In this document: positions 29,186-41,691 of the stretch, in pieces
How positions within the stretch are numbered: the first letter of the stretch is position 1
Layout: the number at the start of each line of letters is the position of its first letter
Source: Myxococcales bacterium
GTDB lineage: Bacteria; Myxococcota; B64-G9
Assembly: GCA_012798435.1 (NCBI GenBank)
Contig: JAAZNF010000099.1
Coordinates: forward strand, 1 to 64,000
Direction of reading: 5' to 3'
Length of the DNA stretch: 64,000 nt
The notes under the pieces: model-generated
Told to the model about the DNA's origin: nothing
The model's database searches: none
What the model saw: the letters and a program-made list of their open reading frames with translations, nothing else
Translations under genes and position numbers: made by a program

Positions 29186-29590
29186 TCACTTCGAGACGAT
29201 CTCGATCTTGCGCGGCTTCGCCTCCTCCGCCTTGGGGAGGTTCAACGTGAGCACGCCGTTTTCGAGCTTGGCGCTGATCTTCGCCTGATCGATGCGCTCG
29301 CCCAGGGTGAAGCGCCGGGAGAACCCGCCCACGTCGTACTCGCGGTACACCAGCCGGTGATGTTCGGGGAGGGGGTTCACGGTGGCGGTGAGCGTCAGCA
29401 CGTTGTCCTGCACGTCGATGGACAGGTTGTCCTTCGTGACACCGGGCAGGTCGGCGTACAGGGTGATGTTCTCGTTGTCCTCGACGATGTCCACGTCGGG
29501 CATGAAGCTCACGTTCTCGCGGGTGGGCTCGCCCGCGGACTTCTCGATGCTCTTCTTGGGGGTCACCTGGAGTTCTTTCTTCTCGCTCAT
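29186..29590 (-). CDS. Small heat-shock protein (Hsp20)
   Basis: 134 residues. A short Lys/Glu-rich N-terminus (about 28 residues) is followed by an alpha-crystallin domain. DVDIVEDNENITLYADLPGV opens it and GVLTLNLPKAEEAKPRKIEI closes it, with the IxI-type tail contact in KIEI. It acts as an ATP-independent holdase. The start has GGAGGTG 4 bases upstream. It begins 13 bp after the upstream Hsp20 gene, so the two form a pair that probably makes mixed or separate oligomers. Confidence 0.92.
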   Translation of the reverse strand: MSEKKELQVTPKKSIEKSAGEPTRENVSFMPDVDIVEDNENITLYADLPGVTKDNLSIDVQDNVLTLTATVNPLPEHHRLVYREYDVGGFSRRFTLGERIDQAKISAKLENGVLTLNLPKAEEAKPRKIEIVSK

Positions 29591-29603
29591 GGTACACCTC
29601 CTC

Positions 29604-30056
29604 TCAGCTCGCCTTGACCTGGATGCGGCGCGCCTTGGCGGACTCGGCCCGCGGCAGGCGCACCTCGAGGATGCCGTTCTTCACTTCGGCCATCACCTTC
29701 GACGAGTCCACTCGGTCGGAGAGGGTGAAGGCCCGCCGGAACTCGCCCTCGGAGCGTTCCTGGCGGTGATAGCAGGCGTTCTCGGAGCACTCGGGGATGA
29801 GGCGCTTGCCCTTGATGGTCAGGGTGTCGTTGACCACCGACACGTCCAGATCCTTGGGATCGACGCCGGGGACCTCGGCGCGCACGATGAAGCTCTCGCC
29901 GTCGTCGTAGATGTTCATCGGCGGGTACACCGAGGGTGCGTAGCCTCCGAACAGCGAGGGCCGGTTCCAGGAAAGCAGCCGATCGAACTCGCGCTGCATG
30001 CGATCCAGCTCGCGGAACAGTGAATTTTCTTCTCCCAGCCAGCGAATGAGTGCCAT
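29604..30056 (-). CDS. Small heat-shock protein (Hsp20)
   Basis: 150 residues. The hydrophobic N-terminal arm (MALIRWLGEENSLFRELDRM) is longer than in its partner. The alpha-crystallin domain runs from MNIYDDGESFIVRAEVPGVD to NGILEVRLPRAESAKARRIQ. An inserted loop with two cysteines (PECSENACYH) is unusual and could respond to redox. ATG 30056 with GGAGGTG directly upstream is preferred over a longer Arg-rich reading. First gene of the two-gene Hsp20 operon; divergent from the DUF1573 gene. Confidence 0.92.
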   Translation of the reverse strand: MALIRWLGEENSLFRELDRMQREFDRLLSWNRPSLFGGYAPSVYPPMNIYDDGESFIVRAEVPGVDPKDLDVSVVNDTLTIKGKRLIPECSENACYHRQERSEGEFRRAFTLSDRVDSSKVMAEVKNGILEVRLPRAESAKARRIQVKAS

Positions 30057-30113
30057 GACTACACCTCCTCTTCTTCGCGTTTTTTCCTGTTGCGGCCGGC
30101 CGGCCACGCAAAA

Positions 30114-30141: not shown

Positions 30142-30237
30142 GGCGGCCAGCGCAGCGCTTGCGTCCGGCGCCGGTTTGCCATAGCATCCCGCGCGGACCA
30201 TCGCTCCCGCTCCGGCGGGACGGAGACGGAGGACTCG

Positions 30238-31458
30238 ATGAGAATTGCAATCTGCCTGCTCCTGCTCCCGGCCCTGGCGGTGCTGCCGCTCTCGGCCGGC
30301 TGCAACAAGGCGCCGGAGGCCGCGGCCGCGGATGGCGCGGTCGCCCCGGCGAACGCACCGGCCGGCCCCCCGCCGGCCATCGCCTGCGACACGCCCGAAT
30401 ACAACTTCGGCACCGTGCCCGACGGCGAGCCGGTCAAACACACCTTCACGGTGAAGAACACCGGGCAGGGCGTGCTCAAGCTGCTGCGCGCCCAGGGGGG
30501 TTGAGGCTGCACGGCGGCCGTGGTCACGACGGCCGACATTCCCCCGGGCGGGGAAGGCAAGATCGACGTGACGCTGAATACCAAGGGCCGGGTCGGCAAG
30601 CTAGAGAAGCTCATCGAGGTGTTCTCCAACGATCCCGAGAAACCGCGGCTCACGCTCAAGATCGGCGGGACGGTGGAGCGTTTCCTGGACTTCGATCCGC
30701 CGCGCCTGAGCCTGGGCAACTTCCTCAAGGGCACCACCCGCACCGAGACCGTGAAACTGGTGGCGAAGGACCCGGCGAAAGTGAAGCTCGGCGAGATCAC
30801 GGTCTCCGACCCCAACGCGGTGAAGGCCGAGCTGGTGAAAGGAGCCGGGCCGCTGCCGGATCTCAAGGTCACCTTGATGGCGGGCGACCGGGAGCGCAGC
30901 TTCTCCGCCCGGGTCACGCTTCAGACGGGGCTCGAGAAGATGCCCACCATCGACCTGCTCATCTTCGGCGCGGTGACCGGGGACCTCGTGCTCGACAAGA
31001 AGTACGCCTACTTTCCCAACTATGACGAGAAGAATCCCCCGACCTTCGAGATCCGGGTGAGCAGCCTGGGCGGCAAGCCGTTCAAGGTTACCAAGGTGGA
31101 GGACCCGCAGGGCTTCGTGACCGGCAAGGCGGACCAGAAGGACAAGGACGTGGTGGTCCTCTTGACCCTCACCAAGGAAGCCAAGCCGCCCCAGGGCAAG
31201 ATCTTGATCCGGACCGATCGCAAGGACCAGGAGGTGCTGGAGGTATCGTATACCGCCCGCACCGGGGTCATCCATCCCCAACCGATCGGCGGGCCGCAGA
31301 ACCCCAACATGCCCCGCGTCATCGAGCCCATCTCGCCGGACATGAAGACCAATCGACCGTTGCTGCATCCCATGCCGCTCAAGCCCGGCATCCAGCGCCC
31401 GCCCATCCGCGTCCAGCCGGGCCCGCCGCCGCCGTCCGCTGTCCCGTCGTCGAAGTGA
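30238..31458 (+). CDS. Selenocysteine-containing DUF1573 lipoprotein (TGA 30502-30504 read as Sec)
   Basis: 406 residues if TGA codon 89 is read through. The signal peptide ends in lipobox LSAGC (Cys22). Residues 50-140 form a DUF1573 (ASPM-SPD-2/Hydin-like) domain: YNFGTVPDGEPVKHTFTVKN before the stop, IPPGGEGKIDVTLNTKGRVG and VFSNDPEKPRLTLKI after it. Family members have SCGCT at exactly this spot; here the sequence is G-G-TGA-G-C-T, so the codon replaces the first Cys of the C-G-C motif. A stem-loop of bacterial SECIS type follows. Two further Ig-like domains and a Pro-rich tail complete the protein. GGAGG lies 6 bases before the ATG. Annotators will split this gene at 30504 unless Sec is considered. 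Its redox partner is unknown. Confidence 0.88.
30502..30535 (+). promoter_or_regulatory. Bacterial SECIS element
   Basis: Starting at the in-frame TGA, a 7-bp perfect stem, CGGCCGT (30515-30521) with ACGGCCG (30529-30535), encloses a 7-base loop, GGTCACG. The stem begins 10 bases after TGA and the loop begins with GG 17 bases after it. Known bacterial SECIS elements have the apical G's within about 16-37 bases, and the E. coli fdhF loop is likewise GGTC-type. Its task would be to recruit SelB with selenocysteyl-tRNA. Confidence 0.85.
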
Positions 31459-35777: not shown

Positions 35778-36024
35778 GCAACCCTCGGCTCCTCCCGCCA
35801 CCTGCCGTCGTTGGGCCACTCTCCCTCGATGAGACGGGACTGACGCCGGGAACTCCGAAACAGAAGCGCTCGATGTGCCTCGGGTCGCGGTGATCCCGCG
35901 GCGAGCGCATTCGCGCGCAAGATGGCGCAGCCACCGGCTTTGCTTTTTCTTTTTGATTTTGCCATGCTCGGCCCGGCTACCAACATTTTTCCCGGAGTCG
36001 GGTCCGGGTATCCAGGAGGAGCCC

Positions 36025-39000
36025 ATGACGCGCGCGATCCGTTGGGGAGGCTGGCTGGCGACATTCTTTCTCCTTGCGGGTTGCCAGAATTGCGGAAAGA
36101 AGGAGGAGGGGCCCAAGGTTCCCGCCGCCGTCGACGCCGGCGGACCGGAGGAGGTCGTTCGCAAGCTCGCGGTGGAGGATCTGCAACCCCTCATCCGGGA
36201 GGAGGGCGCGCTGGGCACCGTCCCCGGCAAGGTGGTGGTGCGCTTCGCCCGGCCGGTGATCAAGGAGGAGGACATCCACAAGCCCGTGTCCGAGAAGACG
36301 GTCCTGACCGTCGGCGTGCCGGGCGAGCTGCGCTACGCCTCCTCGGACACGCTGGAGTTCGTGCCCGACGAGCCCTTCGCGCCCGATACCACCTACACCG
36401 CCACGCTTTCTGCGGTGGACACCTGGTCGGGGCTGATCAGTGCGCCCACCCCCAGCCCCTGGGTCCACGCCTTCCGCACCCCGCGCTTCGCCTTCGTGTC
36501 CGCCGCGCTGCGATCGATGGACCCCAAGAAGGGCATCCTGACGCTGGAGATCGTCCTGTCGGCCCCCGCCGAGGCGAACCGGCTCGCCGAGTTCTCCTCC
36601 TTCCGGGTGAACGGCAAGCCGATGGCCAAGGTGCTGGTCGATCGCCTGGAGGAGCAGAACCGCTTCACCGCCCGCCTGCTCAACGTCGCCTGGCAGCAGT
36701 CGCTGACGATCGAGTTCTCGCTGCGCGCCGGACTCCCCATGGCGGGGGACGAGAAAGTGCGGGCCGAGGCCGCCCGCGAGACCATCCAGATCTCCGGCGA
36801 CCCCTGGCAGATCCTCTCGGCGGACCGCGGCGAGGCCCCGACCGGCCACTACCTGGACTTCGTGTGCGACGACTCGGGTGGCAAGCAGCCGAAGCGCTGG
36901 TACTGGGACCGCCTGCGCCACCAGGACTACCAGATCTCGCGGCGCTGTCTGCCGCTGGAGGCCGACGCACTGGAGAGCATCCGTTTCGAACCCGCGGTGA
37001 AGTTCTCGCTGGCGCCCTCCGACGGCGGCTTCCGCCTGCTCGGCGACTTCCGGCGCGGCACCTACACCCTCACCATCCCGGCCGGCCTGCGCACCCAGGA
37101 CGGCGGCGTGCTGCCGAGCACCTACCGGGAGAGCTTCACCTTCCCGGCGCGGAGCCCCCAGCTCTCCTTCGCCGCCCAGGGCCGCTACCTGCCGCGCTCG
37201 GCCGTGCGCAGCCTGGCCCTGCGCCACCTCAACGTCGACCAGGCGGTCCTGTCCGTGCGCCACGTTCCGAGCGAGAACCTCGTCTTCTGGATGAGCGACG
37301 ACCAGAGCGACGCCGCCACCGAGCGCAACTCGAACCTCATCCAGGAGAAGAAACTCGCCCTGCGCGGCCGCCCGGACGAGTTCGCCAGCACCTTCCTCGA
37401 CCTGGGAGAACTGCTGCCGGCCGAGGGTAAGGGGGTGTTCCAGGTCGAGGTGGTGTCCGGCTCGGCCCGCTCGCGCGTGCGCGTGCTGCTCACCGACATG
37501 CACGTCGTGGCCAAGCGTTCGGGCGAGCTGCCCGAGGAGGGGGGCAACCGGGCCGTGTGGGCCTGGACCCTGCACTCCGAGACGCTAGAGCCGGTCGCGG
37601 GGGTCGAGCTGCGTCTCATTCGCAAGAGCGGCCAGACGGTGGGGCGCTGCGTCACCGACGGGAGCGGCGGCTGTCGGCTCAAGGTGGAGCCGCCGGACAT
37701 CGACAAGTCCGAGCCGTTTGCCATCGTGGCCCAGAAGGGTGCCGACGTCACCTACCTCAAGTTCGCCGACGTGGAGGACTCGGTCGCCGAGGCCCGCGTG
37801 TCGGGCGAGCCGTTCGAGGGTGAGGCCGTGGTGCGCGCCGCCATCTACTCGGACCGTGGCGTGTACCGGCCGGGGGACACCGCGCACCTGGCCGCCGTGC
37901 TGCGCGACGAGCGCAACCTGGCCCCAGCCGCCGGCATGCCCGTGTTGCTGGAGCTGAAAGATCCCCGCGGCAAGACGGTGCGCCAGACCACGCTCACCAC
38001 CAACCCGGCCGGGATGATCGCCTGGGACGTGCGCTTCGACGCCTTCGCCGGCACCGGCCGCTACCAGGTGCAGGCGCAGGCGGCCAAGCGACAGCTCGGC
38101 GAGTACGCCTTCCAGGTGGAGGAGTTCGTGCCCGAGCGTATGAAGGTCACCGCCAAGGGCGAGCGGCCGGCCTACCTCGCGCAAGAGGCGGTGGCGGTGG
38201 ACGTCGCGGCCCGTTACCTGTTCGGCGGCGTGCCCGCCGGGGCCCGGGTGGAGATGTCCTGCGATCTCTCGCCGGCCGCCTTTCGCCCCGGGGACGACGC
38301 GGCCTTCACCTACGGCGTGTTGTCGCTCGAGGAGAAGGCGCCGCGCCCGCTCTCGCTGGGTTCGGTCACCGGCAGCCTGGACGACAAGGGGGCCGCGCGC
38401 CTGCTGTGCCCCGCGCCGACCTCGCCGGTGGAGATCCCCGGCAGCCTGCGCCTCACCGCCCGGGTGGCGGTGTTCGAGGCGGGCTCCGGGCGGACCACCC
38501 AGGAGCAGGCGACGGTGCTGTGGCACCCCGAGCGCTACTACCTGGGCCTGAGCACAGGGACGACAACTGCCGAGGCGGGCCAGGCGGTGGCGGTGAACGG
38601 GGTGGTGGTGGACTGGAACGGCCAGCCGGTAAAAAGCGTGCCCGAGATCGAGCTCATGTTCTTCCGCATGGAAGAGGAGTACGACTGGAGCTACTACGAC
38701 GAGGAGGGTGGGGGCGGCTACCGGCGCTACCGCCGGCCGGTGATGGAGGGGCGCCAGAAGGTCAAGGTCGAGGCCGGCCGCTTCAGCGCCAGCTTCACTC
38801 CCAGTCAGGACGCCTCGGCCTTCCTGGTGCGCGCCCGGGCCGGCAACGCCCGCACCGACCTCGAGATCGCGGGGCGCGGCGGCTACTACTGGTGGGAGGG
38901 CGGCGAGAGCCGGGTGGACCAGACGCCCCGGCCGGCCAAGGCCGCCTGGATCGATCTCAAGGGCCCCGAGGCCTTCCGGGTGGGAGAGGCGGCGCAGGTG

Positions 39001-41691
39001 ACCTTCAAAGCCCCCTACCGCGGGGTGGCCCTGCTCACCGTCGAGACCAATCAGGTGAAGAGCTCCCAGTGGAAGCGGGTGGAGGCCGGCGAGGGCGCCT
39101 TCGAGGTGAAGCTCTCCGAGTTCTCGCCCAACGTGTACCTGGGACTGCTGCTCATCAAGGATCCGCGCCTGGAGTCGAAACAGGCTTTCCTGCCCGATCG
39201 CGCCTTCGGCATCAAGAGCTTCGCCGTGGTGCCCGAGGAGTTCACTCAGGAGGTCCGGCTGGACGTCCCCAAGGAGATCCGCAGCCAGGCCAAGCTCGAG
39301 GTGACGCTCCAGCTGGGGCGCGCCGAGGAGGGGACCTTCGCCACGGTGGCGGTGGTCGACGAGGGTATCCTGTCGCTCACCAAGTTCGCCTCGCCGGATC
39401 CGCACAAGGTGATCTTCGCGGCGCGGGCCCTGGCCGTGCAGACCTTTGAGACGGTGGGCTGGACGCTGCTGCTGCCGCCGCTCTCGCCCTCGACGGCCAC
39501 CGGCGGTGACGACGCCGAGGGCGGGGAGGCGGGCGCCCCGGGGCGGGTGCAGCCGGTGAAGCCGGTGGCCCTGTGGTCGGGGCTGGTGCCGGTGCCCACC
39601 GACGGCAAGCTCAAGCTGTCCTTCGACGTGCCGCAGTACCGCGGCCAGTTGCGCGTCATGGCGGTGACCGCCTCACCGAAACGAATGGGGCGCGCCGACG
39701 CCAGGGTGCTGGTGCGCGATCCGCTGGTGCTCCAGGTCACCGTGCCGCGTTTCCTCTCCGAGGGAGACGAGTTCGAGATCCCGGTGTTCCTGACCAACCT
39801 GTCGGGCCAGAAACGCGACGTGAAGGTGCGACTCATGGTCGAGGCCCTGCCGGTACCCGGCCTGATCGAGGAGAACCCCGGCTCGCCGGTGGAGGTGCGC
39901 GGCAAGACCGAGAAGTCGCTGTCGCTGGCCAACGAGGCCAACGGGGTGGCGGTGTTCGCGGCGCGGGCGCGGCGCTCGTTCGGCGCGGCGCGCTTTACCG
40001 TGCACGCCGAATCGGGCGACATCACGGTGCGCGCTGACCAGGAGGTGCCGCTGCTCCCGTCCGGTCCGCGCAGCCACCGGGTGCAGAAGATCGAGCTCGC
40101 CGGCGGCGAGGTCAATCTCCTGCCGTACCTCGCTGGCTGGGTGCCCATGAGCGAGCACAGCACCTTCTGGGTCACCAGCAACCCCTACGGCGAGGCCTTC
40201 GATCACCTGCGCTACCTGGTGCACTACCCGCACGGTTGTATCGAGCAGACTACCTCCAGCACCCGGCCGCTCCTGTTCCTGGCCGAAATCCTGTCCGGCG
40301 TCGATCCCGAGATGTCGGCCTCGGGCAAGATCGAGGAGGTGGCCCAGCGCGGCATTGACCGGGCGTTGTCCATGCAGACGCCCTCGGGCGGCTTCGCCTT
40401 CTGGCCCGGCGGGACCGAGGCCACCCACTGGGGCAGCGCCTACGCCACCCACATGCTGCTGGATGCGAAGAAGCTGGGATTCTCCATCGGCAAAGAGCGC
40501 CTGGATGACGCGGTGAAGTTCCTCGAGAACCTGATTTCGAACCAGTACGAGAACCGTCCCGCCTCCGAGCGTGGCCGCCACGGCTACTACTGGGAATACG
40601 ACCCGGACGCCGAGCCCTACCTGCAGTACGTGCTGGCCGTGGCCGGCAAGCCCCACAGGGCGCGCATGGAAAAGTTGCTCGCCGAGAGTCGCGCCGACGA
40701 CAGCGAGGGCGCCTACCTGCTCAAGGCTGGCCTGTACCTGGCCGGCGACCGGCGCTACGAGCGCGATCTCAAGAACCCCACGCTCACGCCCATCCAGGAG
40801 AAGCGGCGTTACGGCTGGTCGTTCTACTCCGAGCGGCGGTCCCGGGGCCTCATGCTCAGCGTCTTCGGAGACCTGTTTGGGGCCGACCCCGCCGGGGAGT
40901 CGCTCGCCAACCTGGTGGCCGAGGGCCTGCGCGGCCGGCCCAGCTACTGGTACACAACGCAAGAACTGGTGTGGAGCATCACCGGGCTGGGCAAACGCCT
41001 GCAGGGCGCGGCCAAGAAGCGTGCGCCGGCGCAACTTCTCGCCAACGGAAAGCCGGTGCGCGAGCAGCCGAAACCCGCCGGCAGCAAGAGCGCCGATCAG
41101 AGCTTCGCGCTGGCCCGGGCCTCGGAATACCGCGAGCTGATGCTCCGGCTCCCAGGTGCCCCGGAGGGCAAGCTGTACCTCATCCTGAGCAGCACCGGCG
41201 TGCTGGAAAAGCCGGACTTCCGCACCGGCGGCGAGGGGCTGGAGCTCTCTCGGCGCTACCTCATTGCCGACGGGAGCGAGATCGATCTCGCCACCGGTGG
41301 GCCGGCGCTGGGCGACGTGGTCTACGTGGAGCTGACGATCGCCAACAAGACCAACGAGACGCTCACCAACATCGCGCTCACCGACCGCTTCCCGGCCGGG
41401 CTGGAGATCGAAAACCCGCGGCTCAACCGCGGCGGGGTGGTGGACTGGCTCGACGCCGAGGCGCAGTGGAACCTCGACTACCTCGACATCCGCGACGACC
41501 GGCTGACCGCCTTCGGCAGCCTGGCCAGGGGTGAGAAGCGCACCCTGGTGTACGCGCTGCGCGCGGTGACCTCCGGCCGTTTCACCCTGCCCCCGGTGGA
41601 GGCCGAGGCCATGTACAACCCCCAGGTGTGGGCGCGCGAGGCCGGCGGCAAGATCACCGTGGCCGGTCCCTGGGAGGCCTTCCTCAACTGA
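36025..41691 (+). CDS. Bacterial alpha-2-macroglobulin (lipoprotein)
   Basis: 1888 residues; lipobox LLAGC (Cys20). A string of macroglobulin-like beta domains spans residues 40-1100, including the MG2-type AAIYSDRGVYRPGDTAHLAA near 610. The complement-like thioester domain follows, with HGCIEQTT: Cys1405 and Gln1408 would form the thioester. The last 250 residues hold an Ile/Asn-rich adhesion-like domain. It traps foreign proteases by covalent attachment when cleaved, and is anchored in the periplasm to protect the envelope. AGGAGG lies 5 bases before the ATG. The next gene is PBP1C, the classic partner: protease trap plus peptidoglycan repair enzyme. Confidence 0.95.
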   Translation: MTRAIRWGGWLATFFLLAGCQNCGKKEEGPKVPAAVDAGGPEEVVRKLAVEDLQPLIREEGALGTVPGKVVVRFARPVIKEEDIHKPVSEKTVLTVGVPGELRYASSDTLEFVPDEPFAPDTTYTATLSAVDTWSGLISAPTPSPWVHAFRTPRFAFVSAALRSMDPKKGILTLEIVLSAPAEANRLAEFSSFRVNGKPMAKVLVDRLEEQNRFTARLLNVAWQQSLTIEFSLRAGLPMAGDEKVRAEAARETIQISGDPWQILSADRGEAPTGHYLDFVCDDSGGKQPKRWYWDRLRHQDYQISRRCLPLEADALESIRFEPAVKFSLAPSDGGFRLLGDFRRGTYTLTIPAGLRTQDGGVLPSTYRESFTFPARSPQLSFAAQGRYLPRSAVRSLALRHLNVDQAVLSVRHVPSENLVFWMSDDQSDAATERNSNLIQEKKLALRGRPDEFASTFLDLGELLPAEGKGVFQVEVVSGSARSRVRVLLTDMHVVAKRSGELPEEGGNRAVWAWTLHSETLEPVAGVELRLIRKSGQTVGRCVTDGSGGCRLKVEPPDIDKSEPFAIVAQKGADVTYLKFADVEDSVAEARVSGEPFEGEAVVRAAIYSDRGVYRPGDTAHLAAVLRDERNLAPAAGMPVLLELKDPRGKTVRQTTLTTNPAGMIAWDVRFDAFAGTGRYQVQAQAAKRQLGEYAFQVEEFVPERMKVTAKGERPAYLAQEAVAVDVAARYLFGGVPAGARVEMSCDLSPAAFRPGDDAAFTYGVLSLEEKAPRPLSLGSVTGSLDDKGAARLLCPAPTSPVEIPGSLRLTARVAVFEAGSGRTTQEQATVLWHPERYYLGLSTGTTTAEAGQAVAVNGVVVDWNGQPVKSVPEIELMFFRMEEEYDWSYYDEEGGGGYRRYRRPVMEGRQKVKVEAGRFSASFTPSQDASAFLVRARAGNARTDLEIAGRGGYYWWEGGESRVDQTPRPAKAAWIDLKGPEAFRVGEAAQVTFKAPYRGVALLTVETNQVKSSQWKRVEAGEGAFEVKLSEFSPNVYLGLLLIKDPRLESKQAFLPDRAFGIKSFAVVPEEFTQEVRLDVPKEIRSQAKLEVTLQLGRAEEGTFATVAVVDEGILSLTKFASPDPHKVIFAARALAVQTFETVGWTLLLPPLSPSTATGGDDAEGGEAGAPGRVQPVKPVALWSGLVPVPTDGKLKLSFDVPQYRGQLRVMAVTASPKRMGRADARVLVRDPLVLQVTVPRFLSEGDEFEIPVFLTNLSGQKRDVKVRLMVEALPVPGLIEENPGSPVEVRGKTEKSLSLANEANGVAVFAARARRSFGAARFTVHAESGDITVRADQEVPLLPSGPRSHRVQKIELAGGEVNLLPYLAGWVPMSEHSTFWVTSNPYGEAFDHLRYLVHYPHGCIEQTTSSTRPLLFLAEILSGVDPEMSASGKIEEVAQRGIDRALSMQTPSGGFAFWPGGTEATHWGSAYATHMLLDAKKLGFSIGKERLDDAVKFLENLISNQYENRPASERGRHGYYWEYDPDAEPYLQYVLAVAGKPHRARMEKLLAESRADDSEGAYLLKAGLYLAGDRRYERDLKNPTLTPIQEKRRYGWSFYSERRSRGLMLSVFGDLFGADPAGESLANLVAEGLRGRPSYWYTTQELVWSITGLGKRLQGAAKKRAPAQLLANGKPVREQPKPAGSKSADQSFALARASEYRELMLRLPGAPEGKLYLILSSTGVLEKPDFRTGGEGLELSRRYLIADGSEIDLATGGPALGDVVYVELTIANKTNETLTNIALTDRFPAGLEIENPRLNRGGVVDWLDAEAQWNLDYLDIRDDRLTAFGSLARGEKRTLVYALRAVTSGRFTLPPVEAEAMYNPQVWAREAGGKITVAGPWEAFLN

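Follow-up and report, generated by a model that had tools for sequence, protein, structure and literature searches.

The window analysed here, a 64,000-nucleotide stretch of a Myxococcales genome, carries on its positive strand a gene (30238 to 31458) encoding a 406 aa DUF1573 protein, in which comparison with related sequences makes it very likely that an in-frame UGA at codon 89 (30502 to 30504) is decoded as selenocysteine (Sec). Held almost as firmly is the overall explanation that the product is an exported selenoprotein of the OS_HP2 (DUF1573) family with a Sec-Gly-Cys motif in a loop of its first domain. The first-pass annotation of this sequence had already read the UGA as Sec, a reading now strongly supported by the Sec machinery of the genome; the gene is taken to encode a real selenoprotein because TGA is present in ten of ten orthologues, Cys- and Sec-containing paralogues form pairs, the RNA around the codon is constrained, a downstream hairpin is selected for stability, and the TGA form tracks selA in the Nitrospirota. 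This comparison confirms a gene that pipelines treating UGA as a stop would truncate. It also widens the range of the OS_HP2 selenoproteins, adding a second architecture and a family of the window's phylum, and shows many further members in the Nitrospirota.

Gene structure and Sec codon

In translation, the frame from 30238 to 31458 is open apart from the TGA at codon 89, and a second TGA (31456 to 31458) closes it, placing a recoded and a terminating UGA in one message; the corresponding stops in relatives are TAA, TAG or TGA. A Shine-Dalgarno-like GGAGG (30228 to 30232) lies 5 nt upstream of the ATG. The earlier description of a single DUF1573-like frame broken solely by this TGA agrees with both the frame and a match to PF07610 (86.8 bits against a gathering score of 26.1, E=1e-24) that covers residues 49-146 and positions 2-98 of the 98 in the profile. 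The codon lies in the context LKLLRAQGG-U-GCTAAVV, with the surrounding motif RA-x-GG-[UGA]-GC, and Cys91 (30508 to 30510) forms the second residue of the U-x-C pair. SCGCT, chosen in the first-pass annotation as the motif for comparison, is indeed carried by Cys-type DUF1573 homologues of the Bacteroidota, which share the Ig-like domain and the CxC motif and have Cys in place of Sec.

Orthologues and Cys paralogues

An orthologue was found in all eight other genomes of the window's family and in a single genome from a different family of the same phylum (G023), giving a set of ten genes from ten genera, nine of them in one family, with identities of about 40-60%. Across the phylum, the TGA form occurs in 10 of 195 surveyed genomes, and selA scores above its cut-off in 150. 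The alignment at the Sec column that the first-pass annotation had called for shows TGA in all ten orthologues, within the context [RQK]-G-[GS]-U-G-C, and Cys in three tandem paralogues from G001 and G005 (AGCACT, SSCGST and SSCPCV). Cys91 is likewise kept in all ten Sec orthologues and is Ser in the third copy of G001, a Cys paralogue. Sec and Cys genes therefore coexist inside single genomes; in G001 (locus L086, 5748-10070) three DUF1573 genes stand in tandem, namely a Sec form, a CxC form (AGCACT) and a form that has lost the second Cys (SSCGST). A TGA that is aligned with Cys in homologues and retained in relatives points to recoding and to Cys/Sec exchange. That the TGA is instead a mutated or misread Cys codon, in a pseudogene or through a sequencing error, has next to no probability and is ruled out by the orthologues: the assembly is a draft and TGA is one base away from both TGC and TGT, but ten genera carry the same TGA despite their divergence, and past the TGA the reading frame is conserved wherever the contig of an orthologue extends far enough.

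The same column bears on whether the TGA could be a genuine stop, or be read through without selenium by an ordinary suppressor tRNA, yielding a short and a long product. Read-through of UGA occurs, and an 88 aa product would retain the signal peptide; however, neither TAA nor TAG is ever found at this position, the paralogues have Cys there and not Trp, and the truncated Ig domain, with about half of its strands missing, should not fold. Together with the presence of selA in all ten genomes and the tracking of selA by the TGA form in the Nitrospirota, these observations make such a stop or read-through highly improbable.

Sec machinery and proximity to selC

The window genome is a draft of 129 contigs (5.05 Mb, 97% complete). 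The search for selA, selB, selC and selD suggested in the first-pass annotation finds all four genes: selA (E=1e-161), selB (271.5 bits) and selD (E=2e-106) each score above their curated cut-offs, and tRNA-Sec is identified both by Rfam (75.6 bits) and by ARAGORN. Among the ten genomes with a TGA orthologue, selA is present in every one and tRNA-Sec is clear in nine, with a marginal result in G002.

In four of the nine relatives, tRNA-Sec is located 0.2-2.8 kb downstream of the Sec-DUF1573 gene: 220 bp in G006 (L088), approximately 0.5 kb in G005 (L087), approximately 1.1 kb in G001 (L086), counted from the last of the three tandem copies, and 2.8 kb from the matched region in G007 (L089). 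The two genes are on different contigs in the window genome, however the genes that follow tRNA-Sec are common to the window genome, G005, G006 and G007, suggesting that selC and the Sec-DUF1573 gene may have separated in the former. The closeness to selC is a hint that this protein matters for how these bacteria use or sense selenium.

Hairpin 1, the predicted SECIS element

Immediately downstream of the Sec codon is a hairpin (hairpin 1, 30515 to 30535) predicted to be the core of the selenocysteine insertion sequence (SECIS). The first-pass annotation had placed a perfect 7-bp stem with loop GGTCACG 10 nt after the TGA and judged it to lie within the rules for bacterial SECIS elements, and both statements hold exactly: CGGCCGU (30515-30521) pairs with ACGGCCG (30529-30535) around the 7-nt loop GGUCACG, G is first in the loop, and 17 nt separate the UGA from the loop. 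The published bacterial consensus, with which the hairpin of the window gene complies, is a stem of 4-16 bp and a loop of 3-9 nt with G in its first two positions, 16-37 nt from the UGA (PMC13188914). The exact register varies among the orthologues, and in several of them neither of the first two loop nucleotides of the most stable stem is a G.

Hairpin 1 of the window gene, folded by itself, shows no excess stability by folding energy (z=0.28 over 44 nt of a GC-rich gene); its excess stability is significant solely across the ten orthologues. Among these, neither the sequence nor the register of hairpin 1 (nt 12-35) is constant from gene to gene, yet the hairpin is more stable than in synonymous shuffles, with a summed z of -6.2 to -7.1 and none of 300 codon-preserving shuffles as low. 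RNAalifold run on the in-frame alignment missed the hairpin because its register shifts between genes, and folding of each sequence against synonymous shuffles was therefore used. SelB carrying Sec-tRNA-Sec would bind hairpin 1 and decode UGA-89 as selenocysteine, and the terminal UGA, with no such hairpin behind it, would end the protein.

The SECIS of E. coli fdhF has GGUC in its apical loop at nt 22-25. Hairpin 1 has the same GGUC in its apical loop at nearly the same distance (nt 21-24), however the stem sequences of the two are unrelated, and we know of no second hairpin described for E. coli fdhF. An Rfam scan of 30400-30700 returned Burkholderiales-2 RNA below threshold (20.9 against 67.9 bits), a match rejected as chance.

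A second hairpin and RNA-level constraint

RNA-level constraint was measured on a codon alignment of the ten orthologues by permuting synonymous codons within each gene (six-codon windows, 300 permutations). The only windows to exceed every null maximum fall at codons -10 to +19 around the TGA (window starts -10 to -5 and +5 to +14), which argues for selection at the RNA level. The signal is strongest at codons +12 to +17, where z is 9.4 against a null maximum of 4.6; as the orthologues share ancestry, these z values compare a stretch with the remainder of its own gene and should not be read as probabilities from independent samples.

This peak corresponds to a second predicted hairpin (hairpin 2, 30539 to 30555; UUCCCC-CGGGC-GGGGAA in the window gene), at nt 38-54 counted from the U of the UGA. 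Its sequence, UUCCCC-CGGGN-GGGGAA, is the same in all ten genes, save that the Gly codon in the loop varies at its third base and that G023 differs at one base of the stem. The corresponding 16-base pattern, CCCCCGGGNGGGGAAG, occurs at the Sec-DUF1573 gene in each of the ten genomes and once elsewhere, in G001, where it falls in an unrelated run of G that lacks any TGA context; the reversed control has zero occurrences in the ten genomes. Hairpin 2 was not found in the third-copy Cys paralogue of G001, the pattern search returned no copy at the other Cys paralogues, and no sampled Nitrospirota Sec gene has it. Since the sequence does not vary, covariation lends no support to the pairing, and the segment could be a linear element rather than a paired stem. 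Upstream of the TGA (30472 to 30492), the synonymous codons GTG (-10), CGC (-5) and GCC (-4) are invariant in the codon alignment wherever the residue is kept; candidate pairings that fit most sequences are of the upstream GCC with the hairpin-2 loop, or within a hairpin, CGCC-nnn-GGYG, immediately 5' of the UGA.

It is unlikely that hairpin 2, and not hairpin 1, is the true SECIS of this lineage. Hairpin 2 is under stronger constraint than any other RNA segment of the gene and has a G at the second position of its loop, but that loop begins 40 nt after the UGA, beyond the 16-37 nt of the published consensus (PMC13188914), whereas hairpin 1 is within range in the window gene, is selected for stability and lies where the Nitrospirota genes have their predicted SECIS hairpin. 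With hairpin 1 as the predicted SECIS, the additional, strictly conserved hairpin is unexplained by current Sec-insertion rules. One tentative proposal is a two-part insertion signal in this lineage, combining an ordinary SECIS with the invariant, gene-specific hairpin 2 and perhaps the conserved element upstream of the UGA; if so, hairpin 2 would serve to adjust SelB delivery, the pausing of the ribosome or the regulation of this selenoprotein alone. Bacterial SECIS elements are viewed as single hairpins, and hairpin 2 departs from this view in a concrete way that can be tested.

Relationship to the OS_HP2 family

The first-pass annotation had suggested that DUF1573 might be a new selenoprotein family, which proves to be wrong. 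OS_HP2 (pfam07610, motif UxC) appears in a Global Ocean Sampling paper of 2008 (PMC2398784), and a DUF1573 domain-containing protein with motif UGC in two reviews (PMC9312934, PMC13188914); the reference list of a review attributes OS_HP2 to Zhang and Gladyshev 2007 (the Olavius paper). The family is thus listed in papers of 2008, 2022 and 2026, has been known since about 2007-2008, and is represented by the NCBIfam model NF041425, "OS_HP2 family (seleno)protein". This model scores the window protein at 98.7 bits, 1.3 under the curated cut-off of 100, and six orthologues at 111.4, 103.9, 102.1, 106.2 and 107.2 (five above the cut-off) and 95.5. Its UGC (UxC) motif, with Sec first, is found as GG-U-GCT in the window and as U-G-C in all ten orthologues. 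Sharing the domain, the Sec column and the motif, the Sec-DUF1573 gene is a genuine addition to an already known selenoprotein family. The window protein differs in its length of about 400 aa, its two extra predicted Ig-like domains, its Pro-rich tail and hairpin 2, whereas the Nitrospirota forms that were checked are mostly short and single-domain. No description of the three-Ig-domain version, the closeness to selC or hairpin 2 was found in the literature searched.

Matches were found in 91 sampled Nitrospirota genomes, and in 65 of these a match contains TGA, the motif having been checked by eye in nine fetched loci of these 65 (L107 being the same gene as L047). selA is present in 60 of these 65 genomes and in 9 of the 26 with stop-free matches alone (Fisher p=4e-8). 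The Nitrospirota genes (e.g. L047, JAMCWJ010000100.1) have TGA in the same motif (ASUGCTA) and a predicted SECIS hairpin in the same place, but its sequence differs, being GAUGGCU-AGUUCR-AGCCAUC in most of those sampled. The many Sec-DUF1573 genes at L107-L118, most of which share this hairpin among those sampled, are good material for an RNA family model.

Protein architecture and predicted function

The N-terminal export signal (30238 to 30303) contains, by inspection, a lipobox-like LSAGC (Cys22), making the lipoprotein assignment of the first-pass annotation plausible for the window protein. The assignment does not extend to the group: the proteins of G002, G003, G004 and G006 have a hydrophobic, export-like N-terminus that lacks a lipobox-type Cys, suggesting that all are exported but that anchoring differs from one protein to another. 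The product would therefore be exported, with a lipid anchor probable in the window protein. The AlphaFold2 model predicts three Ig-like beta domains (about residues 46-147, 150-247 and 250-340), with pLDDT over 90 through most of residues 50-340, and assigns low confidence to the signal segment and the Pro-rich C-terminal tail (31258 to 31455). The first domain (30373 to 30678), of DUF1573 / HYDIN-VesB type according to the profile match, the model and a fold search, holds Sec89 in a loop between strands 80-87 and 92-96; the other two domains (30685 to 31257) are supported by the model and the fold search. In the fold search, chains of the ciliary central apparatus rank first, in accord with the HYDIN/ASH-type match at sequence level; with low TM-scores, this is a likeness of fold alone, from which no function can be read. 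The mature protein would consist of the three Ig-like domains and a disordered tail, presenting Sec-Gly-Cys in the first-domain loop.

Redox chemistry is the favoured function of the Sec-Gly-Cys pair, with moderate confidence. The pair would most likely alternate between the selenol/thiol and selenenylsulfide states, serving as a CxC-type redox centre for a partner in the envelope. Binding of a metal or metalloid (e.g. Hg or Cu) by an inserted U-G-C, in place of redox catalysis, is possible though clearly less likely. CxC pairs can bind soft metals, the review table that lists OS_HP2 credits to the same original source several selenoproteins that serve in mercury transport or are metal proteins, and inspection of the neighbouring translations (no family scan) found no redox partner near the gene. 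However, most known selenoproteins have a redox-active motif (PMC13188914), and the Cys paralogue with SSCGST retains the first Cys alone, a pattern more in keeping with a nucleophile than with bidentate metal binding.

Genomic neighbourhood

By inspection of their translations, the neighbours of the Sec-DUF1573 gene resemble a type II secretion/pilus ATPase, an AAA+ ATPase, GpsA and PilZ/FHA proteins, with others resembling PhoU-like, phosphate permease and acyltransferase genes. Divergent from the Sec gene, two adjoining small-heat-shock-protein-like genes (29186-30107, translations inspected) lie on the minus strand. Further downstream, a large ORF (35875-41691) resembles bacterial alpha-2-macroglobulins and contains, by inspection, a CIEQ thioester-type motif.
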